A DNA stretch of 11,570 nt, taken from contig JABFSD010000295.1 of the NCBI GenBank assembly GCA_013140935.1, forward strand, positions 1-11,570. The letters run 5' to 3'. Of the stretch, positions 1,766 to 11,528 are shown piece after piece (positions within the stretch are counted from its first letter, which is position 1; the number at the start of each line of letters is the position of its first letter). The notes under the pieces are model-generated. The model had not been told where the DNA came from. It saw only the letters and a list, made by a program, of their open reading frames with translations, and made no database searches. The stretch comes from Acidobacteriota bacterium. GTDB lineage: Bacteria; Acidobacteriota; Blastocatellia; RBC074. Made by a program: the position numbers and the translations under genes.

Positions 1766-2716
1766 CTAGACAGTGGCTGTGGCGGGCAGCGGATGTTGTT
1801 GCAGCCACGTTTTCAACTCCGCTAAGGAACTGAAACTGAGCAAAGAGTCTATGAGTTCTTCCGCTTGTGTTAGCGGCAAGGCGCGAATGTGTGATTGCGT
1901 AGCCTCATCCAATGCGCCAAAACGCTGCTGCAATAGCCGGAAAGCGATATTTACCGCTTCTTTTTTCATGCCGCGTCTTTCAGTAGATGTGATGTATTCC
2001 ATTTTCTGTTCCTCCTCGATTACGGTTAGTTGTTCATCGAATTCATCGGACAATTCCTCTGGCAGCGTCAGCACCCAATCCAGAAAGCGAAACAGCCCGA
2101 TGATCTGTTGCTTGCTGAATCCGCGTTGATAAAGCCGTCTGGTCATTGCCAGTCGTAGCTGCATGCGGGCGCGGGCGTCGTCGCGCGTCTGTTGCGCAAT
2201 CAGATGCGCTTGCACAACGACTGCGAAAGGGTTCGCGCTTTGTTCCAGTTCATCCAGCCGCTGGCGATAATCGGTCAGCTTGGCCGTCACGAACTTGAGC
2301 CGCAGTTCCGTACCCAGCAATTCCGTTTCATAAACCGCAGGCCGCCAGTGTTCTTCTTCGTCAGTGAAAATCACGAAGGTGGCGACGGGCGCGTTGAAGC
2401 GGTTAAAGAGCCTTGAGTGATAAACATAAATCCGCTCGGCGAAATTCGTCTCGCGCTGGCCTTGCACTTCGACATGCACCAAGACCCAAAGTTCGGTGCC
2501 GTTCTTGAGCCAGACTTTGGCGAGTTTGTCTACGACGCGGCGGCCCAGCGCAGCGTCCGCCGTGATCTTTTGCAGTTCCTTGTCAAGAAACTCATAACCG
2601 CGCGACCAATCAATTTGTTCGTGCGCCGCCGGAAAAAAGAACTCGAACGCGGCCTCGAAGAAGATATCTAAAATTTCTTTCCACGGACTATCGTAATCGG
2701 CTTGATTCACGTTCAT
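1766..2716 (-). CDS. Rpn-type PD-(D/E)XK nuclease / transposase-like protein with DUF4351 tail
   Basis: This protein of 316 residues belongs to the Rpn/PDDEXK-type transposase-like families that are abundant in cyanobacteria and Acidobacteriota. Visible family marks are YDSPWKEIL (8-16), FFFP (26-29), YEFLDKEL (41-48), VDKL (62-65) and HVEVQ (81-85), where Glu83 and Gln85 sit in the place of the E-x-K/Q catalytic pair. NFAERIYVYHSRLFNRF follows at about 91-107. The last 60 residues (KKEAVNIAFRLLQQRFG onwards) look like DUF4351. Rpn proteins are DNA endonucleases that promote recA-independent recombination, and that role is inferred here. I chose the ATG at 2716 because conserved sequence begins there and GGAGAG lies 10 bases upstream. 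An upstream TTG at 2785 would add 23 residues and overlap the previous stop as TTGA, giving 339 residues, and cannot be excluded. Confidence 0.85.
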   Translation of the reverse strand: MNVNQADYDSPWKEILDIFFEAAFEFFFPAAHEQIDWSRGYEFLDKELQKITADAALGRRVVDKLAKVWLKNGTELWVLVHVEVQGQRETNFAERIYVYHSRLFNRFNAPVATFVIFTDEEEHWRPAVYETELLGTELRLKFVTAKLTDYRQRLDELEQSANPFAVVVQAHLIAQQTRDDARARMQLRLAMTRRLYQRGFSKQQIIGLFRFLDWVLTLPEELSDEFDEQLTVIEEEQKMEYITSTERRGMKKEAVNIAFRLLQQRFGALDEATQSHIRALPLTQAEELIDSLLSFSSLAELKTWLQQHPLPATATV

Positions 2717-2781
2717 ACCCTCAACGCTCTCCTGTGAAAAACGGATGACGGGCGACAGTTTTGTTGATGGAAAAGGCGGCG

Positions 2782-3231
2782 TCAATCTTGTGATTGGCTT
2801 CTTATTGGCCGAGCGCCAGACATCTCAGGGATGTAACGGCTGAGGTAAAGACGACCTTCGTAATCAACCAACCCGACTACGGATTGATCTAAAAAGCCGC
2901 GCCGTCCTAATACGTGGCGGCGAAAACTTTCATCGGCGGCGAAGCCCACCAACGCATCAAGTTCAAAACCCGCCACGATCAGTGTGACTTCGTGCAAGTA
3001 AACGACGAAGTTGCCTGTAACGGTGCTGACCGTTCGTTTGAGGCCGTCTTCGATGGTTAGTCCCAAGTCTTCGCCGACCTTCCTGCCAAAGATGGAAAAG
3101 GTCGAACCGGTATCAACTTTAGCTTCGCAGCCGACGGTGTCGCGGACTAACCTGAGCGATACGTCAAGCGTAATGCCCGGCTGACCCGCGTCGTAATTCA
3201 CCAAGCTGTCGAAGTTAAGTTGAAAGCTCAC
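2782..3231 (-). CDS. retropepsin-like aspartic protease-fold protein
   Basis: The product has 149 residues and no signal peptide or membrane segment. KVDTGSTFSIF at 38-48 holds the DTGS active-site motif (40-43) of pepsin/retropepsin-type aspartic proteases. The second hallmark, hydrophobic-hydrophobic-Gly before a loop, is visible as HVLGRRGFLDQ at 106-116. A single copy of DTGS implies a dimer, as in retroviral proteases. Small single-domain proteins of this kind are common and mostly uncharacterised in cyanobacteria and Acidobacteriota, so proteolysis is inferred from fold motifs only. The start is GTG at 3231, overlapping the previous gene's TGA by four bases (GTGA). This suggests translational coupling and joint function with the DUF5678-like gene. 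It could also be a catalytically silent binding domain. Confidence 0.75.
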   Translation of the reverse strand: MSFQLNFDSLVNYDAGQPGITLDVSLRLVRDTVGCEAKVDTGSTFSIFGRKVGEDLGLTIEDGLKRTVSTVTGNFVVYLHEVTLIVAGFELDALVGFAADESFRRHVLGRRGFLDQSVVGLVDYEGRLYLSRYIPEMSGARPIRSQSQD

Positions 3232-3655: not shown

Positions 3656-5794
3656 TTAAACTCGCTGGAGTCCAGCTTTTTCCAAGTATACCCGATTCCC
3701 GCTCGCACCCAAGGTTTGCACGAAGCCCGCTAGGTGAAAGGCTTCGGTCACAACGGCGCGGCGTACGTCGAGTGGCAAGAGCGTTTGAAAGCGTCCCAAG
3801 GCGTACCAGCTTTCCAACTGCCGCCAGCGTTTGCGCAAGAGCGTATGCAACTGAGGTTCGGTGAAATCCGTTGGCCCGACAGGCAGCGTGCCGCTGAACG
3901 CAACGTAAAGCTCGTTGTAATCTTCGACGCGCGCGCGATAACGGCTGGTGAGCAAATCGCCGAGCAGCAAGCCATAAGCATCGCCTGCGCAATGAAAGAG
4001 CCATGTCGTCGTATCGTTTTCATCATCGTCAATCATCATCGCCAATGCGTCTGGATTCGTCGCGCACGGCACGCCGAGTTCGGCGGCGACAGCGCGCGCC
4101 AACGCGGGCGTGAGCGGACGCCAGGGCGTGAACATTCGCGGCGCTTGCGCTTCGGCGTCAATCGTGCGCACCATCAGCTTGCGTCCGACTTGATACGTAG
4201 CCTCGCGTGCGTGGCCGCCGAACAGCATCGCTTCGCCGGGCAGCAGGTGGCGTTCGATTTCGCCAAGACGACGGCCTGTTTCTGCTTCGATGATTTCAAG
4301 CGAACGGCGGCTCGTATCCATCAGGTTGGTGTAAAGCGCGCGTAACTCGAATAACTCTTGCCACGCCGGGCCGGGTTTTAACGCCGCGCCGGTCGCAGTG
4401 GCGACGAAGAATCCTTTGGCGATCAGGTGTTCGATGATGCGGTCGTAATGTTCGCGCGACAGCAACGGTTCGCCTTGCGGCGTGACGAACAATTCATAAG
4501 CCGCGTCGGGATGAAGCTCGCCCAAACGGTTTTGTTTGACGTAAGAGCAAAGCTGCTGAATGACGACCGAAGCGCGAAAGAAATAATGATGAGCAGCGTC
4601 AGGCGTGAAACCGCGCAGGAAGACTTGAAACAGCGCGCGTTCGAGCGGATTGCGATAACCGCAAACGACTGACGTGCGCGCGGTGCGGCGATTGCCGCGT
4701 CCGATGCGTTGCAGAAAAGTGTCTTGTTCGCGCGGCGCGCCGATGAGGACGACGAGGTCTACGTCGCCGATGTCTATGCCGAGTTCGAGCGTAGAGGTCG
4801 CAAAGCACAACGCCGCATTCGCGTGCGTGAAATTCTGTTCAACCATTCGACGCACCGAAGCCGCGAGGCTGGCGTGATGGACGTATACGTTATCGCCGAA
4901 GGGTGAAGCGGGCTTTACGCGATAAGCCCATTGCTCGCATTCGGCGCGACTGGGGCAAAAGGCGAGTACTTTTTTGACGCCGCGTTTTTGCAGGCTGGCA
5001 AACAGGTGCAACAGCCTTTCGGGCTGTTCGAGTTCGACGAGTTCGGCGTCAATGGCGCGTTGGCCTGCGACCTGGATGACGCGGGCGTCGTTGAAATAGC
5101 GCGCGGCTACTGTCGCCGGATCGTGAATCGTCGCCGACAGCGCGCAGTATTGCAGATGCGCGCTCGTCGCTTCGCCCCGCGTGAACGCATAGCTTTTCAA
5201 ACGGCGCAAACGATTGAGCAGGATGCGCAACTGATCGCCACGCACCGTATTGTCGAAGATGTGAAGTTCATCAATTACTACGGCGCGCAGGTCTTTGAGC
5301 ATACGCGGCGCGTTGGTCAGCAGCGAATCCAGCGACTCAGGCGTAGTCAGCAAAACTTCGGGCGGACGTTCGGTGTTGAGCGCGGGTTCGTCACCGGTTT
5401 TGACGCGCAAGCCGATGGCGAGCTTTTCGAGCGGTGGTGCCAGACGACGCGCCAAGTCACGAGCAAGGGCGCGCGTAGGTACGAGATAAAGCAGCGAGAG
5501 TTTATGTTTGGGCGGCTGGTGCTGTTTGTGCAATTCGAGCAACGGCGCAAGCGCGGCTTCGGTTTTGCCGCTGGCGGTGGCTGAGACGATTACGCAATTG
5601 TGGCCTTCGAGCAGCGGCGGAATCGCTTGCGCTTGAATTTCAGTGAAACGACCAAAGCGCGCAAAGAACGCATCCCAGGTGTGCGGCAGGCGGTCTTTGA
5701 GTTGGCGCTGTTGGTCGGTCGAGCGGGAGTTATGGGAGCTATGAGAGCCAGGCGATTCGCTGAAAGATTGTCCCATAGCTTTCATAACTCCCAT
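3656..5794 (-). CDS. Lhr-like superfamily II DEAD/DEAH-box helicase
   Basis: This 712-residue ATP-dependent nucleic-acid helicase or translocase shows a full SF2 motif set (numbered from the ATG at 5794): motif I ATASGKTE (72-79), Ia PTRAL (106-110), TTPESL (150-155), motif II DELH (175-178), motif III SAT (220-222), motif V ATSTLELGIDIG (332-343) and motif VI QRIGRGNRR (362-370). ELGIDIG with QRIGRGNRR is characteristic of the Lhr group. The C-terminal 290 or so residues are uncharacterised to me; in Lhr relatives this part carries winged-helix and beta-barrel elements. The first 30 residues are low in complexity and are written by an inverted nonamer repeat. A TTG at 5797 precedes the ATG, and the ATGs at 5785 and 5776 are also possible starts. 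The gene follows the ATPase stop by 6 bases, so the two are surely co-transcribed. Related helicases (BrxHI-type) occur in BREX loci beside BrxD. Confidence 0.92.
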   Translation of the reverse strand: MGVMKAMGQSFSESPGSHSSHNSRSTDQQRQLKDRLPHTWDAFFARFGRFTEIQAQAIPPLLEGHNCVIVSATASGKTEAALAPLLELHKQHQPPKHKLSLLYLVPTRALARDLARRLAPPLEKLAIGLRVKTGDEPALNTERPPEVLLTTPESLDSLLTNAPRMLKDLRAVVIDELHIFDNTVRGDQLRILLNRLRRLKSYAFTRGEATSAHLQYCALSATIHDPATVAARYFNDARVIQVAGQRAIDAELVELEQPERLLHLFASLQKRGVKKVLAFCPSRAECEQWAYRVKPASPFGDNVYVHHASLAASVRRMVEQNFTHANAALCFATSTLELGIDIGDVDLVVLIGAPREQDTFLQRIGRGNRRTARTSVVCGYRNPLERALFQVFLRGFTPDAAHHYFFRASVVIQQLCSYVKQNRLGELHPDAAYELFVTPQGEPLLSREHYDRIIEHLIAKGFFVATATGAALKPGPAWQELFELRALYTNLMDTSRRSLEIIEAETGRRLGEIERHLLPGEAMLFGGHAREATYQVGRKLMVRTIDAEAQAPRMFTPWRPLTPALARAVAAELGVPCATNPDALAMMIDDDENDTTTWLFHCAGDAYGLLLGDLLTSRYRARVEDYNELYVAFSGTLPVGPTDFTEPQLHTLLRKRWRQLESWYALGRFQTLLPLDVRRAVVTEAFHLAGFVQTLGASGNRVYLEKAGLQRV
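5725..5792. repeat. inverted pair of nonamer repeats inside the helicase N-terminal codons
   Basis: GTTATGGGA and GCTATGAGA (5729-5746) face, on the other strand, GTTATGAAA and GCTATGGGA (5788-5771). The 22-base arms 5725-5746 and 5771-5792 match at 19 of 22 positions with a 24-base loop. The element occupies the first 25 or so codons of the helicase reading frame, two bases after the ATG at 5794, and accounts for the low-complexity MGVMKAMG and GSHSSHNSRS residues. Confidence 0.8.
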
Positions 5795-5800
5795 CAAGCT

Positions 5801-7213
5801 CTATCGCCCCAACATCCCCCGCCGCAACTCAGTCATCGCTTGCGAGACGGCAAAATCAGGATGGGCATAATTGAGGTCATAAACCTCAGTCGCCAATCGA
5901 ATCATCTGCCGCAAGTTGATGAGCCGCCCGTCCAGGCATTCGCGCAAAGCCGACGCTACGTCAGCGTAATCATTACGATGCTCATAACCATAAGCCTGAC
6001 GATGCAGCGCCGAGAGTTGAATCATCAAATCATTCGCAGCACTTTCTGACAGGTGCGCCGAGAGCGCGATGATCTGGTCGTCGTTGAGCCAGCGCCGATA
6101 ATCAAACGTACTCGCCGACGGCGTCACCGCGAACATCACCAGCAACTGGCTGCGGTCGGTGAAACGAAAGGCGTGCGCGTTGGTGTGATGCGCGAGTTGT
6201 TCTTCTTTGATCTTGCAGCCCTTGTGTCCGGCGAGTGCCGTATACATCAAGCCGCGAAAGAAATTGTCGGCGCGTTCCTGCCCGCGTACGTTGAGCAAGC
6301 TGTAATGCTCCGATTCGTCCAACAGCACCGCGATGCCTGCGTAACCAGCCTGTTGCGCGAGCCAGCCCCAGCCGCTCAACAGATAGCAATACTGATCTGC
6401 CGAAGTCGTCATCATCGAGAGCGCAGGAATCGGAAACTCTTTGCTCTTGACCGCGACGGCTTGCCGCACGGCGCTGATGTAAACCTTTTCGCCCGCCAGC
6501 CAATCGAACAACAGGTTGAGCGACTCGCCCGGCTGGTTGCGCATCAGCGAATAGTTATGCAGCGCCGAACCGAAGATCGTACCTTGCAATTTGGTCAGCA
6601 ACTCTGAATACGCAGGCAGCGCCAGCAAGCGCTCAAACAGCGGCGTCAATGTACCCGTCTCAGCGGTGTCGGGATAACGCAGGTTGTGCAACAGCGCGTT
6701 GTAAATCCGTTGCGGGCGATTGGGCGGAACTTCGCGCACGTCGAGACTTGCGGTAACGACAAGGAAGTTGCGTTCCAACGCCTCTTGCGCGGCCAGTTCA
6801 AAGAAATGGCTTTTGCCCGTGCCGTATTCGCCCAGCACTACGCGCACGTCGCCGCCGGTTTTGCCGACCGCGTCGAACGCGCGACTCAAACTGGCGCGTT
6901 CGCTTTTCAGCCCCGCGCTCAATTCACGAATGCGCGTATGCGGTACGACGCCGTAACGCAACGCCTCGATCGTGCGGCGCGCGGCAAGACGATCTTCCTG
7001 TTCCTGTGTACGCACGGCTTCGACGCGCGGCGCGATCAACGGACGCGGTGCTGGCAGCGGCGTGCCAGAAGATTTCAGCACCGAAAGCAGATTGACGGGC
7101 ACAACCGCGCGAATGCCGTTGTCAAAGCGCACGGCGCTCTCACGCGCAGCATTGCGCAACTCGATGATTTGTCCGCGCCCGAAAAGCGGATGGTTTACCG
7201 TAGAGCCGATCAT
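5801..7213 (-). CDS. DUF2791-like P-loop ATPase with N-terminal Tudor-like segment
   Basis: The product has 470 residues. The P-loop GEYGTGKS lies at 128-135 (Lys134), followed by HFF as in BrxD-type proteins. The Walker B strand GIAVLLDESEHY at 293-304 supplies Asp299 and Glu300. IRELSAGLKSE before the P-loop and YNALLHNLRYPD after it align by eye with the neighbouring BrxD-like ATPase, so the two are distant paralogues. Residues 1-46 (VNHPLFGRGQIIEL, then VRFDNGIRAVVPVNLL) look like the small Tudor-like beta-barrel found at the end of UvrD/PcrA-type helicases, where it serves protein or nucleic-acid contacts. The paralogue lacks it. The ATG at 7213 is preceded by only a weak TGAGAA site. 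ATP hydrolysis driving DNA handling together with the adjacent helicase is inferred from context. Confidence 0.85.
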   Translation of the reverse strand: MIGSTVNHPLFGRGQIIELRNAARESAVRFDNGIRAVVPVNLLSVLKSSGTPLPAPRPLIAPRVEAVRTQEQEDRLAARRTIEALRYGVVPHTRIRELSAGLKSERASLSRAFDAVGKTGGDVRVVLGEYGTGKSHFFELAAQEALERNFLVVTASLDVREVPPNRPQRIYNALLHNLRYPDTAETGTLTPLFERLLALPAYSELLTKLQGTIFGSALHNYSLMRNQPGESLNLLFDWLAGEKVYISAVRQAVAVKSKEFPIPALSMMTTSADQYCYLLSGWGWLAQQAGYAGIAVLLDESEHYSLLNVRGQERADNFFRGLMYTALAGHKGCKIKEEQLAHHTNAHAFRFTDRSQLLVMFAVTPSASTFDYRRWLNDDQIIALSAHLSESAANDLMIQLSALHRQAYGYEHRNDYADVASALRECLDGRLINLRQMIRLATEVYDLNYAHPDFAVSQAMTELRRGMLGR

Positions 7214-7265
7214 AAATTTTCTCAGTTGAAAGCAATCCAGTGTTTGATCGAATTGTTGCGATGGG

Positions 7266-7364
7266 CATTCTCCATTCTCAATTCCCCATTCTCAGACAGA
7301 CAGAGAGAAACATTCACAAGCATGCCCTCTGTCAAAGAATTGAGAATAGAGAATTGAGAATGGC
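7266..7364. repeat. inverted pair of heptamer tandem repeats (gap between the two ATPase genes)
   Basis: The units CATTCTC, CATTCTC, AATTCCC, CATTCTC (7266-7293) face GAATTGA, GAATAGA, GAATTGA, GAATGGC (7337-7364). Positions 7272-7294 and 7341-7363 are complementary at 21 of 23 positions. A second 7-bp stem (GACAGAG at 7299-7305 and CTCTGTC at 7327-7333) continues the same fold inward. This fills most of the 209-base gap between the two ATPase genes. The remainder (7214-7265 and 7365-7422) shows no gene or clear site. Confidence 0.85.
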
Positions 7365-7422
7365 GGTGTTTCAAAGTGCGTGTTAGCCGCAAGCGATTCA
7401 AATGCCCAGCCTGGCAACAACT

Positions 7423-8706
7423 TTAGTATTCGCCGCCTTCGGCGCGTCCCAATTGTTCAGTGACGGAGCGCACGACGGTTTGTACGTTGTCGTTTTCGTA
7501 AAGGCGTTCGCCGTCGGCGCGCTGTTCGGAAAGCATGTCAATCAGCGATTTGACGAAATGCCGCCGATGGCTCGTAGACAACAGCGCCGCGCAGGTGTCA
7601 GCCAGTTGCGCGATGTTTTGCGATTGCAACGCGGGCGTGAACTTGCTGCCATAAGCGACTTGATAAACGTCTAGGAGCCGTTCGCCGATCTTGCGCAACA
7701 ACTCTTCGCCGGGATAGTCGAGTTGATCCAAACTGATTTGCACGCTGAACGGATTCTTGCGCGAGAACTTCACTTTGGAACTGACGCGCTGGCTCAACGC
7801 TTCGTATTGCGGCGCGATGTTCGTCACGAAATAAGGCGGCACGGCATAAGCGAACATCGTCGCGGGCAAGCTCTCACCGGCGCAGCGATCAATCACTTCG
7901 CGCAAGTTGTCGCACGCGGCTTTTTCGGTGCGCGACGAACCGATGCTCACCATCCGGTCGCCTTCGTCAAACAGCAATACCAGCCCGACGTAACCCAATT
8001 CATTCACCAACTGCGAAAGCGAACGCAGCATCTTGAATGCGACCGTGCGATCCATCCGTTCGCTGATGCTGAACGCGCGCACGTCTTTCAACGCGACCGT
8101 TTCGCCGCGCAACCACGCGCCTAAAATGCGCTTGTCGGCTTCTTTCTCTTCGGCGACGGCTTTCAGATAAAAATATACGGCGTGCCGATATGAAGGGCTT
8201 TCGACCTTGAACCGCAGGATGGTGTCGAGCCAAAGCTCTACGCGCTTGTCTAGGCCGACGCTGGTCAGCATCTGTTCGACGCCGAGCATCCGCATCGTGT
8301 GAAAGAAATGATTTTCGAGAAAGGCTTCGATGCCTTGCGTGTCGGCAATCTGCGGATCAGGGTCGTGATAAATCAGGTTGTTGACGACGGCTTGATAGAC
8401 CTTGAGTTGATTGTCGTAAGGGCATTCTTTCGGACTGAGTTCGGTGCGGCTCACGACGTATCCGTTCTGCCACGCGAGATCGCGCAGCCGAAACAGAAAG
8501 TGCGACTTGCCGCTGCCATATTCGCCTACGACAAGTTTGAAACTCGAACCGCCGTCGCGCAGGTAGCCTTTCAGATATTCGTTCTCAATCGTACCCAGCA
8601 CCGAATCCATCCCGACCGTGTATGCCTCAAGCCCGCGCGTCGGCGGAATGCCCGATTCGCCCAGCTTGCGCACGATATGTTGTGCCTCTTGTTGCGTCAG
8701 TGTCAT
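7423..8706 (-). CDS. BrxD-like ATP-binding protein (DUF2791 family)
   Basis: The product has 427 residues. GEYGSGKSHF at 61-70 is the P-loop (Lys67), and GLVLLFDEGDRM at 241-252 is the Walker B strand with Asp247-Glu248. The N-terminal pattern GIPPTRGLEAYTVG followed by YLRDGGSSFKLVVGEYGSGKSHF is characteristic of BrxD, an ATPase of type 2 BREX phage-defence loci, and of relatives in other predicted DNA-processing clusters. The ATG at 8706 has AAGGA ending 8 bases upstream. The gene is the second of the leftward set, separated by about 100 bases from each neighbour, and both gaps hold inverted heptamer repeats. No BREX methylase or PglZ is present in the window, so I do not assign the symbol brxD. 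The role is probably the ATPase partner of the Lhr-like helicase, inferred by analogy. Confidence 0.87.
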   Translation of the reverse strand: MTLTQQEAQHIVRKLGESGIPPTRGLEAYTVGMDSVLGTIENEYLKGYLRDGGSSFKLVVGEYGSGKSHFLFRLRDLAWQNGYVVSRTELSPKECPYDNQLKVYQAVVNNLIYHDPDPQIADTQGIEAFLENHFFHTMRMLGVEQMLTSVGLDKRVELWLDTILRFKVESPSYRHAVYFYLKAVAEEKEADKRILGAWLRGETVALKDVRAFSISERMDRTVAFKMLRSLSQLVNELGYVGLVLLFDEGDRMVSIGSSRTEKAACDNLREVIDRCAGESLPATMFAYAVPPYFVTNIAPQYEALSQRVSSKVKFSRKNPFSVQISLDQLDYPGEELLRKIGERLLDVYQVAYGSKFTPALQSQNIAQLADTCAALLSTSHRRHFVKSLIDMLSEQRADGERLYENDNVQTVVRSVTEQLGRAEGGEY

Positions 8707-8725
8707 TGCTTTGTCCTTGTATAAG

Positions 8726-8800
8726 AATTCAGGAGACAGGAGACAGAATCCAGAATTCAGGAGCTTACATTCTGACTCCTGAATTCTGACTTCTGACTCC
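8726..8800. repeat. inverted pair of heptamer tandem repeats (gap between unknown gene and BrxD-like gene)
   Basis: Five contiguous 7-bp units ending in CAG run from 8726 to 8760: AATTCAG, GAGACAG, GAGACAG, AATCCAG, AATTCAG. Four 7-bp units starting with CTG run from 8772 to 8799: CTGACTC, CTGAATT, CTGACTT, CTGACTC. The two blocks are inverted relative to each other. Positions 8739-8763 pair with 8776-8800 at 22 of 25 positions around a 12-base loop, and the inner 13 bp are perfect. The element resembles the short tandemly repeated heptamers of cyanobacteria. It could form an RNA hairpin between the genes. Confidence 0.85.
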
Positions 8801-8808
8801 CTTCTTCT

Positions 8809-9696
8809 TTATTTTTCCGCCGCGAAATAAAGGTCTTTGATGAAGGCGCCTTCGGTCGCGCCCGTTGCCAGAAACATCGCTTTGGTGGTGTCAGCGCCGA
8901 TATCAATGGTTGCGGTGCCGAGATTGAGGCGATGGCCTTCGTGCGTGAGCTTGTTCGAACGGCGTAGCTGCAACATGTCGTAAGCAAATTGCGCTTTCGG
9001 ATAATCGAGAAAGCTCGATTTCGAAGGCGTCTTACGAAAGCCCAGCGGTTGCCGCACTAACACCAACTCGCGGTAACAATCCACGATGGGTTGGCGCGCA
9101 CCCGTCGGCTTGCCGCTGAGTTTGAGCGTACGTTGATAGGCTTCATACAACTCGCCGAGAAACGCGGCGTAATCCACCTTGCGTTCACAGATTTCCTTGC
9201 GCGCTTTGAGATAGGCTGTGACAACACGCTCTACGTCGAGCTTGACCGCGCCTTTGGTCACGGCTTGGCGCGAAAAGCTGATCGTCACTTGCCGCTTGCG
9301 CAGGTCAGGCTTGATGACGAACAAATCGGCAATCAATTCCGCAGGCGCACCGTTGAGCTTCAAGCCTTCCACCGCAAAGGCTTCGCGCAAGTCGCGGGCA
9401 AAGGTGAATTCCAGATCGGCCAGCTTCTCATCGGCCAGCGCGCGAATGCCTTGCACGAGCTTGTTGTAACTATTTGGCAGCGCCAACTCTTCGTTGGGTT
9501 GTTCGAGCAAGAGCGCGGCTTCGTGCAATACGACGGCGTTCTTGTGCGGGTCTTTCAAAGCGCGCATCGCGGTGTCGAGCGGTTTGATTACGGCCTGTCG
9601 CAATTTCACTTCGGTCGTCAACAACCGACGCACTTCACTCAATCCAGCACTTTGGGCGGAGTAATCCACCGGCGCTTTCGCAGCAGCAGTCATCAT
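8809..9696 (-). CDS. uncharacterised helical protein, first gene of the ATPase-helicase operon
   Basis: I do not recognise this 295-residue protein. It has no signal peptide, membrane segment, cysteine cluster or nucleotide-binding motif. It is strongly charged and looks mostly helical: EVRRLLTTEVKLRQAVIKPLDTAMRAL (21-47), then VVLHEAALLLEQ, LADEKLADLEFTFARDLREAF (88-108) and ERVVTAYLKARKEICERK (156-173). The C-terminal quarter is more strand-like (LNLGTATIDIGADTTKAMF, 257-275). I chose the ATG at 9696 because AAGGAG ends exactly 8 bases before it. The frame can be extended in-frame to an ATG at 9777 (322 residues), but that extension lacks a comparable ribosome site. As the promoter-proximal gene followed by two ATPases and a helicase, it may be the adaptor or specificity subunit of the complex. 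I considered a TerB-type protein but saw none of its marks. Confidence 0.8.
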   Translation of the reverse strand: MMTAAAKAPVDYSAQSAGLSEVRRLLTTEVKLRQAVIKPLDTAMRALKDPHKNAVVLHEAALLLEQPNEELALPNSYNKLVQGIRALADEKLADLEFTFARDLREAFAVEGLKLNGAPAELIADLFVIKPDLRKRQVTISFSRQAVTKGAVKLDVERVVTAYLKARKEICERKVDYAAFLGELYEAYQRTLKLSGKPTGARQPIVDCYRELVLVRQPLGFRKTPSKSSFLDYPKAQFAYDMLQLRRSNKLTHEGHRLNLGTATIDIGADTTKAMFLATGATEGAFIKDLYFAAEK

Positions 9697-9884
9697 AAAT
9701 TTTTCTCCTTGGGTTGGTTCGGCGTGAACCGTCAATTCGTCAGCGGGTTTGAATTCGTTGCTGACAGTGACCAACATCGGCCACTCGCTGAAGATGTGCG
9801 GCGAAAAAATCTCTTCCGAAAATAAAATTATTCCTCTGCCTGCATTCCTTTGCCGACAATCATTGTTTTATACTGCGCGCCGCC
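9697..9884. other. divergent intergenic region between the two operons
   Basis: This stretch holds the 5' ends of both transcription units. Next to the minus-strand gene is AAGGAG (9705-9710, minus strand), which sets its start at 9696. Positions 9697-9777 are also readable as an in-frame N-terminal extension of that gene. An AT-rich block at about 9814-9832 is the likeliest place for a leftward promoter, but I found no convincing -35/-10 pair. No operator palindrome stood out. Confidence 0.5.
9869..9874 (+). promoter_or_regulatory. candidate -10 box for the DUF488 operon
   Basis: TATACT lies 10 bases before the ATG at 9885, in an AT-rich patch of the divergent intergenic region. The only TTG-type -35 candidate (TTGCCG at 9850-9855) is 13 bases away, which is short, so the match is weak. 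If real, transcription would begin within a few bases of the start codon. The message would be close to leaderless, consistent with the absence of a Shine-Dalgarno sequence. Confidence 0.3.
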
Positions 9885-10376
9885 ATGAAGCTTCGCACCA
9901 TAGGCCACAGCAATCACGACATCGAAGCCTTCATCGCCCTGTTGCGGCGATACGAAATCAATCTGCTCATAGACACCCGCTCGCAGCCTTACAGCCGCTA
10001 TTCGCCCCATTTCAATCGCGAACCGTTACAACATCAGTTGGCGCAACACGACATCGCTTATTTACATCTCGGCGCTGAACTCGGCGGACGCCCGGCGGGC
10101 AGCGGTTTCTATCTCGCCAACGGCAAAGTGGATTACGACCTGCTCGCCGCCGCGCCGTTTTATCTCGCCGGCATCGAACGATTGCTCGCGCTGGCCGAAG
10201 AACAACCAGTCGCTTTTATGTGCAGCGAAGGCGACCACAAACATTGCCATCGTTATTGGTTGATTACGCGCACGCTGGTCGAGCGCGGCATCGCCGTCGA
10301 ACACATTCTGCCTTCCGGCGAACTCGTCGCTTCTTCTGCGAATGAGTTCGTGCCGGAGCAACCGAGTCTGTTTTAG
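9885..10376 (+). CDS. DUF488 family protein
   Basis: The product has 163 residues. The DUF488 pattern is complete: TIGHSN (5-10), LIDTRSQPYSRYSPHFN (28-44, with Asp30 and Arg32), YLHLGAELGG (59-68) and FMCSEGDHKHCHRYWL (111-126, a Cys-x7-Cys-His-Arg motif at Cys113/Cys121). DUF488 proteins are a widespread small enzyme-like family of unknown reaction, repeatedly met in accessory and conflict-related loci. The conserved Cys and CHR suggest a catalytic or metal site, which is inference. The ATG at 9885 has no visible Shine-Dalgarno sequence, and a -10-like TATACT lies only 10 bases upstream, so translation from a nearly leaderless message is possible. It is the first gene of a rightward set, 25 bases before the second DUF488 gene. 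Confidence 0.9.
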   Translation: MKLRTIGHSNHDIEAFIALLRRYEINLLIDTRSQPYSRYSPHFNREPLQHQLAQHDIAYLHLGAELGGRPAGSGFYLANGKVDYDLLAAAPFYLAGIERLLALAEEQPVAFMCSEGDHKHCHRYWLITRTLVERGIAVEHILPSGELVASSANEFVPEQPSLF

Positions 10377-10401
10377 TTTTCAGCTTGAAAGGATCGGCCT
10401 G

Positions 10402-10821
10402 ATGACGATCTACACGATTGGGTTCACCAAAAAATCATTGCGCGAATTTATCGAAACGCTGCGGGCGGCTGACGTGCGTTGCGTGATTGACGTGCGGTTG
10501 CGCAACACTTCGCAACTCGCGGGTTGGAGCAAGCAGCCCGACTTTGAATACCTGCTCACGACGGGCTTCGGCATCGCTTACGAACATCATCCCGAATTCG
10601 CGCCGACGGGCGAGATGCTGGATGAGTACAAACGCAATGGCGATTGGGCGCGTTACGAAGCGCGTTTCAATTCGTTGCTCGCTGAACGCCAACCGCCAAT
10701 GTGGACGCAAGAGAACGCTTGTCTGCTTTGCACCGAACCTACACCTGCGCAATGCCATCGCCGATTGGTGGCGGAATACCTGTGCGTGCTCGACCCGCTC
10801 CTGGAGGTGAAACACCTGTGA
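10402..10821 (+). CDS. second DUF488 family protein, distinct subfamily
   Basis: The product has 139 residues. TIYTIGFTKKSLREFIETL (2-20), VIDVRLRNTSQLAGWSK (28-44, with Asp30 and Arg32 in register with the first copy) and LLCTEPTPAQCHRRL (108-122, Cys110-x7-Cys118-His-Arg) define a DUF488 protein. The substrate-side loop (RNTSQLAGWSK) differs clearly from RSQPYSRYSPHFN in the upstream copy, so this is a separate subfamily and not a recent duplication. I chose the ATG at 10402 because AAAGGAT lies about 9 bases upstream and TIGF is the normal N-terminus. An in-frame ATG at 10342 would run inside the previous gene. The stop overlaps the next start as GTGA. The pair may act as a heterodimer or on two related substrates, which is inference. 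Confidence 0.9.
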   Translation: MTIYTIGFTKKSLREFIETLRAADVRCVIDVRLRNTSQLAGWSKQPDFEYLLTTGFGIAYEHHPEFAPTGEMLDEYKRNGDWARYEARFNSLLAERQPPMWTQENACLLCTEPTPAQCHRRLVAEYLCVLDPLLEVKHL

Positions 10822-11528
10822 GCGTAACCAAAGACATCACCATTCTCGCGCTGACCAAAATGCACGGCGGCGTATGCACCGCAGGCATTGATGCCGATGG
10901 GCAATGGGTGCGTCCGGTGCGCACTGCGCAACAGGTCGAACACGGCATCACCGATCATTGCCTGCTGCCGCTCGATTTCTTTCACGGCGGCCAGTCGCAT
11001 CTCGTCAATCTCGGCGTCACGCGCTTCACGCTCGACGCGCCCGCGCCGCAACCGCCGCACAGCGAAGACTGGACGCTCAACCTCAAACAGAAACCCTCGT
11101 TCATCAGGAAACTGTCAACCAGTGAACAAACTGATTTTCTCGCCGCGCACGCCGAAAGTACGTTGACGCTGGCTGACCCAGGACGTTCGCTCACGCTCAT
11201 CAAGCCGGATGATTACCGCTTCACGTTCAGCCGCAATCAGACCGGCGATGACGTAACGGTGCGCGCGTCATTCTCAATTGGCGCGACAACGATCAACGAC
11301 ATCGGCTGCACCGACCTGCGCCTGCGCGTACTCGGTCGCAAACTCTGTCCGCAAGCCGACGCAGCGCCTTACACGCTCAATCAAACGGGCTTCGCGCGGC
11401 ACGGCAAAGAGGCGATGTATCTGGCGGTAGGCTTATCGCGGCTGCATCAAGGCAAGCATTGGCTGATTGTCGTTGGCGTACACACATTGCCTGAATTGGC
11501 GTTGGAGATTGATTACGCAAAGCTGTAG
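10818..11528 (+). CDS. dual-OB-fold-like protein linked to DUF488 genes
   Basis: The product has 236 residues. The start is GTG at 10818, set by a strong GGAGG at 10803-10807 and a four-base overlap (GTGA) with the preceding stop. Frame-open sequence upstream (to 10701) lies inside the DUF488 gene. The opening ITILALTKMHGGVCTAGID then GQWVRPVR (8-35), and the closing YLAVGLSRLHQGKHWLIVVG then HTLP (201-225), match my memory of the dual-OB (DuOB) family. In that family two OB folds are predicted to bind nucleotides or nucleic acid, and it has been noted in bacterial conflict systems, sometimes beside DUF488. The family assignment is from these two blocks only. No catalytic motif is evident. 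In this operon it would be the nucleic-acid or nucleotide recognition partner of the DUF488 proteins. Confidence 0.75.
   Translation: MSVTKDITILALTKMHGGVCTAGIDADGQWVRPVRTAQQVEHGITDHCLLPLDFFHGGQSHLVNLGVTRFTLDAPAPQPPHSEDWTLNLKQKPSFIRKLSTSEQTDFLAAHAESTLTLADPGRSLTLIKPDDYRFTFSRNQTGDDVTVRASFSIGATTINDIGCTDLRLRVLGRKLCPQADAAPYTLNQTGFARHGKEAMYLAVGLSRLHQGKHWLIVVGVHTLPELALEIDYAKL

Follow-up and report, generated by a model that had tools for sequence, protein, structure and literature searches.

A conserved four-gene set with two BrxD-like ATPases and an Lhr-type helicase, related to BREX and Shango

A BrxD-like ATPase together with an Lhr-like helicase forms a part of BREX type 2 and of Shango whose job is unclear. 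Shango is an anti-phage system, as given in the accessible text of PMC10250203. In the portion of a BREX survey open to us, BrxD is classed as an ORC-Cdc6 ATPase, it is suggested that BrxD may load the helicase BrxHI, and a Tudor domain is found in BrxHII; the same portion names no BREX-free four-gene set, and the word 'Shango' is absent from its main text (NAR 2026, PMC12839542). Here we describe a set of four genes, P1 to P4 (the quartet), on a stretch of 11,570 nucleotides (nt) from an Acidobacteriota bacterium of the class Blastocatellia (GCA_013140935.1, contig JABFSD010000295.1). This stretch, the window, is one entire contig of an assembly that is 73.8% complete and comprises 1235 contigs, and the host locus is readable only to the contig ends. 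The quartet is a real unit, one conserved gene set. Judged by its sequences, it is neither BREX nor Shango in full, and both are relatives. It appears to share the ATPase-helicase core of these known systems, and for the four-gene set itself no description was found in the open-access literature searched. We assign a probability of about 50% to the reading that the four proteins form one machine, an independent anti-invader system related to BREX and Shango.

The initial annotation claimed four co-directional genes at 3656-9696, and open reading frames (ORFs) are found at these positions, all on the minus strand, in the order P1-P2-P3-P4:

9696-8809, minus strand: P1, 295 residues, no known family
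8706-7423, minus strand: P2, 427 residues, BrxD-like AAA+ ATPase with Walker A and Walker B motifs kept (PF10923, E = 9.8e-48)
7213-5801, minus strand: P3, 470 residues, BrxD-like ATPase, apparently an old paralogue, with an N-terminal Tudor domain (PF10923, E = 1.7e-30)
7070-7213, minus strand: Tudor domain of P3, UvrD/PcrA-type by profile matches to UvrD Tudor structures
5797-3656, minus strand: P4, 713 residues, superfamily 2 (SF2) DExH helicase of the Lhr/BrxHI/SngC type

The longest ORF of P1 begins at 9777 and encodes 322 residues, and the database copy and the nearest homologue begin with the methionine of position 9696, so that P1 has 295 residues. The 713 residues of P4 correspond to the longest ORF with a TTG start; an internal ATG close by is equally possible. 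The genes are separated by 102 nt (P1/P2), 209 nt (P2/P3) and 3 nt (P3/P4).

The order P1-P2-P3-P4 on one strand recurs in 60 of 94 loci, the window counted, so the quartet is more than a chance arrangement; conservation as neighbours had been named in the initial annotation as a point to check, and it is found. The loci are pooled from a P3-family alignment scan of named genomes (139 relatives confirmed, 80 kept as loci), from regions of further genomes and from the window. Nine of the 103 sources (102 loci plus the window) are removed, namely eight duplicates and L138, a contig of genome G039 with P1 only, its counterpart L137 from G011 being retained. In the complete loci the median gaps are 2.5, 12 and 18 nt for P1/P2, P2/P3 and P3/P4; both gaps flanking P2 in the window (8707-8808 and 7214-7422) exceed the respective medians. 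The carriers include Acidobacteriota, WOR-3/Stahlbacteria, Latescibacterota, Gemmatimonadota, Zixiibacteriota, Cloacimonadota, Myxococcota, Deltaproteobacteria, Poribacteria and Tectomicrobia among the bacteria, and methanogenic or anaerobic methanotrophic (ANME) lineages among the archaea. At E<=0.001, P1 has 276 relatives and P3 at least 210 (the 7997 best candidates scored), and the homologues listed with names are Acidobacteriota, chiefly Blastocatellia and Pyrinomonadaceae.

A search with a profile of P1 itself shows that P1 and the ATPases occur together. Among 147 WOR-3 genomes, P1 is present in 59 and the ATPases in 63, with both in 58, P1 only in one, ATPase only in five and neither in 83 (Fisher p 9e-34, the genomes not being independent). 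Among 297 Acidobacteriota genomes, P1 is present in 13 and the ATPases in 13, with both in 12 and each alone in one (Fisher p 2e-19, with the same dependence among genomes); P3 matches occur in 23 of these genomes, and the 13 in which the ATPases form an adjacent pair or P3 matches strongly are taken as carriers, the ten weak single matches being excluded. In G011 and G039, P1 and the ATPase pair lie on separate contigs, and P4 is not located in either genome. Pairwise distances within the four protein families are correlated over the 60 complete loci (0.89-0.94; shuffled maximum 0.17), a correlation to which shared descent contributes. The conserved order and strand, the co-occurrence of P1 with the ATPases and the correlated distances are among the reasons for reading the quartet as one machine. 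Some of the 34 incomplete loci stop at contig ends and others are apparently true variants; L104 is counted here since its longest ORFs overlap in the wrong frame. In three loci of one Acidobacteriota genus (L032, L037 and L038) the gene ahead of the ATPase pair encodes a coiled-coil protein, which we take to be of the DUF3782 type.

The absence of BREX partners noted in the initial annotation (methylase, PglZ, PglY/BrxC) is borne out within the window, and the quartet contains no methylase, phosphatase or recognisable nuclease. The annotation had also asked whether pglX or pglZ homologues lie just beyond it. The host contig ends there; in the related loci, a single PglX-like match is seen, a 967-residue protein in L109 (1.4e-13). 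PglZ, searched with three queries and with a joint profile, is not matched in the 102 loci and the window, with the controls found, although remote forms could escape. The joint profile and the Aulosira BREX proteins were used in a rerun because the first PglZ queries missed the Aulosira PglZ. Queries with BrxC/PglY, BrxA and BrxB give no match in the same set, where no positive control responded; the BrxC query, taken from the Aulosira plasmid, missed the type-2 PglY controls, and remote BREX types could escape. The BREX gene search covered about 1.54 Mb, including nine redundant or partial loci. PF08665 (PglZ) has no match anywhere in the assemblies G000, G235, G275, G009 and G051, the last four being close Acidobacteriota carriers. 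A PglZ domain occurs somewhere in the genome of 29 of 50 carriers, and in five WOR-3 genomes (G430, G444, G449, G450 and G451) P1 and PglZ share a contig at a distance of 0.35-1.03 Mb.

One copy of the quartet does adjoin BREX. On a conjugative plasmid of Aulosira laxa (AP018310.1, 3238-24287; L145/L146), a complete BREX locus is followed on the same strand, after 172 nt, by the quartet; in this locus PADLOC recognizes BrxA, BrxB, BrxC, PglX, PglZ, BrxD and BrxHI. This arrangement, together with BrxD and BrxHI as the top PADLOC models for P2 and P4, would fit a leftover of BREX type 2, a BrxD-BrxHI pair remaining after loss of the core genes. Such an origin is very improbable: the quartet is intact in most loci across many phyla, P3 and P4 form separate clades, and the BREX locus next to the Aulosira quartet still has a BrxD and a BrxHI of its own. 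Two BREX-2 loci, in which P1 was not searched for, are annotated with a single BrxD adjoining a single helicase. The ATPases and helicase of the Aulosira quartet are closer to those of a quartet of divergent form on a 26.9-kb plasmid of Desulfomonile tiedjei than to those of the adjacent BREX, and these two plasmid quartets belong to a branch remote from that of the window. The description of a minimal BREX-related complex stands in part. The quartet is compact, self-standing and conserved, but Shango had been overlooked and one plasmid relative follows a complete BREX locus.

In Shango-like loci on three plasmids, a TerB_N protein is encoded together with a single ATPase and a helicase. The quartet resembles this layout of helper protein, BrxD-like ATPase and helicase, and the PADLOC Shango models are matched by P4 at 209 bits and by P2 at 98 bits. 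The quartet could thus be a Shango member that has P1 in place of the TerB subunit and a duplicated ATPase, and that acts as Shango does. We consider this unlikely. SngA, of 760-815 residues and with TerB_N, TerB and TerB_C in the two proteins scanned, is found in none of the 102 loci or the window, in a search where three distant SngA proteins recover one another, and in none of 50 carrier genomes, where no positive control responded. P1 as a relative of TerB/SngA is rejected on sequence, the profile-profile probability being 0.4%. P4 also forms a separate clade, and SngC sits with BrxHI, in a tree with a midpoint root and five reference rows.

That tree splits 33 P4 rows from three SngC and two BrxHI with a support of 100/100, and within P4 the phyla are intermixed. 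P4 matches Pfam DEAD and Helicase_C and carries the SF2 helicase motifs; among PADLOC models BrxHI scores best (236 bits), followed by SngC of Shango. The assignment to the Lhr group of SF2 helicases in the initial annotation is upheld. In NCBIfam the top model, that of the ligase-associated DNA damage response DEXH helicase, is matched at 196 bits, where the cut-off is 850. The closest solved chains, 5v9x and 7lhl, are both titled ATP-dependent DNA helicase and are presumably Lhr.

P2 and P3 both match PF10923 (BrxC_BrxD), in agreement with the two BrxD-like (DUF2791-like) ATPases, the second diverged, of the initial annotation. Against the NCBIfam BrxD equivalog P2 reaches 131 bits, below the cut-off of 350. 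Walker A is kept in 60/60 loci for P2 and 58/60 for P3, and the Walker B pattern in 60/60 for each. The ATPase tree has 57 rows and, as with the helicase tree, few references (three Shango-like and two BREX-2 loci); a branch (98/93) separates the 26 P3 rows from P2, SngB and BrxD. The P2 rows form no single group, L036 and the plasmid copy standing apart from the remaining P2, and P2 does not group with SngB alone. Because the P3 rows are split from P2, SngB and BrxD, the duplication looks old, and the retention of both copies with their Walker motifs since then argues for different jobs for P2 and P3.

By a loose motif, a small N-terminal domain is present in 51/60 P3 proteins (first 70 residues) and in 2/60 P2 proteins (first 60). 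A strict Tudor motif is found within the first 60 residues of 38/60 P3 proteins; hence some P3 are without the Tudor. The profile of this domain, built from 17 of 20 rows (L057, L103 and L112 excluded) and compared with all solved chains, places UvrD Tudors on top (7egt_B, 6e-5; 7egs_B and 6yi2_A, 1.4e-3), followed by demethylase Tudors. The P3 profile gives only two odd matches to solved structures. His8, Gly12, Gly14 and Phe30 are invariant over the 17 aligned rows, and Phe11 is the consensus residue. In PcrA, the Tudor domain of this type binds RNA polymerase; the residues mutated there include His681 and Trp684, as described in the accessible part of PMC5397179. Judged by the motif, His8 of P3 and the aromatic residue three positions on would be the counterparts of His681 and Trp684. 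The P3 Tudor, being of UvrD/PcrA type, points to a predicted contact with RNA polymerase, a lead that is not raised for the BrxD-BrxHI pair in the portion of PMC12839542 at hand, or for Shango in that of PMC10250203.

P1 has no match at E<=1 in Pfam, PADLOC or NCBIfam, and PADLOC-DB 2023 matches neither the window P1 nor the Aulosira P1. An assignment to a known Pfam family is rejected, as the 79 members of the P1 family give only scattered weak matches: a given Pfam family is hit by four members at most (best E 0.0026; 25 of 71 families shown). Searched by sequence against solved structures, P1 is not identified either: the 49 matches with E<=1 are for the most part to coiled-coil and helical proteins, the best at 1.6e-4. 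The AlphaFold2 model (pLDDT 93.7) consists of long N-terminal helices, a small alpha/beta middle and a winged-helix-like C-terminus (residues about 174-295), and as a whole it finds nothing better than E 0.9 in Foldseek. The earlier label 'unrecognised helical protein' thus holds as to recognition, P1 belonging to no curated family, and as to the N-terminal helices, but not for the alpha/beta part and the winged-helix-like end.

In the proposed mechanism, P2 and P3 would form a mixed ring or clamp of the ORC/Cdc6 kind, to which P1 may contribute a DNA contact through its winged-helix-like end as well as a helical scaffold. The P3 Tudor would dock the assembly onto RNA polymerase, the ATPases would load P4 onto the DNA, either at the transcribing polymerase or behind it, and the loaded P4 may strip or unwind invader DNA or its transcription complexes. 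As the quartet holds no self-marking gene, the invader would be recognized by the state of its DNA, such as stalled or heavily transcribed DNA or replication forks, and not by methylation. More tentatively, the quartet may be a split ORC-like loader, with two ATPases and a separate winged-helix subunit, that is tethered to RNA polymerase by the Tudor; such a machine, separate from both BREX and Shango and common to bacteria and archaea, would load an Lhr-type helicase against foreign or conflicted DNA during transcription, with no modification mark.

The defence reading is drawn from the kinship of P2 and P4 with BrxD/SngB and BrxHI/SngC and from the anti-phage role of Shango, from the plasmid copies, one of them behind BREX, from a few flanking proteins that match defence models, and from accessory behaviour. 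The last comprises the presence of P3 in 14 of 162 genomes of the home class, partial copies, inserted PIN and GNAT genes and the mixing of phyla in the P4 tree. Among the partial copies, L027 has a shortened P1 and lacks most of P2 (an assembly error also being possible), L135 is a P3 piece only and L136 is P1 only.

A serious rival, held at roughly one chance in three, is chromosomal genome maintenance, either transcription-coupled repair or resolution of transcription-replication conflicts, in which P3 would sit on RNA polymerase as PcrA/UvrD and Mfd do and P4 would unwind R-loops or damaged DNA. Several observations favour it and weigh against an anti-invader machine: the UvrD-type Tudor of P3 (compare PcrA, in the available text of PMC5397179), the DNA damage response helicase as best NCBIfam model for P4, a clade-wise, partly syntenic and mostly single-copy presence in WOR-3, neighbours that are, among those shown, largely ordinary cellular proteins, and the lack of any copy found in phages or viral contigs. 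Against the strict integrity of the machine stand L084, L096, L118 and L123, with the ATPase pair and no P1 or P4 at the locus, and L069, L078, L080 and L090, with no P4. The maintenance function is in turn opposed by the patchy presence in the home class and family, where the same-genus genome G291 is negative, by the partial and split copies, by the plasmid copies, one beside BREX, and by the best PADLOC relatives of P2 and P4, which are defence proteins. The kinship with BREX proposed in the initial annotation stands, and the defence-or-repair function given there is one that we infer.

The surroundings of the quartet are varied. In WOR-3 they are partly conserved in 10 of 18 loci examined, as expected of a stable chromosomal operon. 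Among 132 nearest neighbours of 41 picked loci, each PADLOC or Pfam family turns up three times at most. These are 132 of 134 listed proteins, selected by excluding those below 120 or above 1000 residues or with unknown letters, the two further exclusions being proteins of about 990 residues. Their Pfam families are largely ordinary cellular (25 of 154 shown), and among their PADLOC families (25 of 118 shown) a few are defence models, mad3 in 3/132 and AriA, reverse transcriptase and Cas1 in two each; the counts stand without a control set and carry no statement of enrichment. The P3/P4 junction exceeds 300 nt in six loci, and each of the other junctions does so in one. In three Acidobacteriota loci the space is taken by a PIN or GNAT gene and its small partner (L063 and L129 by Pfam, L081 by eye), in L114 and L119 by other small ORFs, and in L053 by 4.6 kb of transport genes. 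A PIN-like ORF is also seen by eye between P3 and P4 in L128, which is cut before P1. Toxin-antitoxin-like genes of differing kinds (GNAT, PIN) stand at this one operon junction in Acidobacteriota relatives, as if guarding the operon.

On mobile elements, 54 stretches of viral contigs fit a pattern and none is confirmed, and phage records likewise give nothing. The window P1 has no plasmid match. The window P3 matches 668 plasmid records, all below 60% identity and none covering more than 80% of its length; six plasmids examined from 20 listed P3 matches comprise three Shango-like loci, two BREX-2 loci and one quartet.

Within the window, two DUF488 proteins and a dual-OB protein are encoded on the plus strand at 9885-11528, divergent from the quartet. 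They match B, C and A of PADLOC PDC-M45, a candidate defence set, the third weakly (2.9e-8). A TM0106-family RecB-like nuclease gene, truncated at the contig end, occupies 1-1749 on the minus strand, adjoined at 1766-3231 by an aspartic-protease-like gene and a DUF4351 gene.

The quartet may be an overlooked way for cells to protect DNA. As a compact four-protein set without methylase or phosphatase, it makes the ATPase-helicase function, for which helicase loading is suggested in the accessible text of PMC12839542, testable in isolation. Compared with known systems, it resembles BREX type 2 in a BrxD-type ATPase followed by a BrxHI-type helicase and in the one relative that adjoins a complete BREX locus; it differs by having no PglX, PglZ or PglY/BrxC and by having two distinct ATPases and P1. 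Shango is likewise a small BREX-free operon without methylase or phosphatase, with a BrxD-like ATPase and then an SF2 helicase as the 3'-most gene. Its TerB_N protein SngA, however, is unrelated in sequence to the 295-residue P1, and the quartet adds a second, Tudor-bearing ATPase and a helicase of its own clade. A Tudor is shared with PcrA/UvrD, with other RNA-polymerase partners (Mfd, CarD, RapA) and with BrxHII of BREX-3, and that of P3 is of the UvrD type; it is carried by an AAA+ ATPase and not by a helicase, and its binding to RNA polymerase is a prediction. The likeness to ORC/Cdc6 loaders would lie in ORC-like ATPases (the class of BrxD in the available portion of PMC12839542) beside a helicase and in the winged-helix-like end of P1, whereas in the quartet this end is on a separate protein and the helicase is of SF2 and not a hexameric replicative one.

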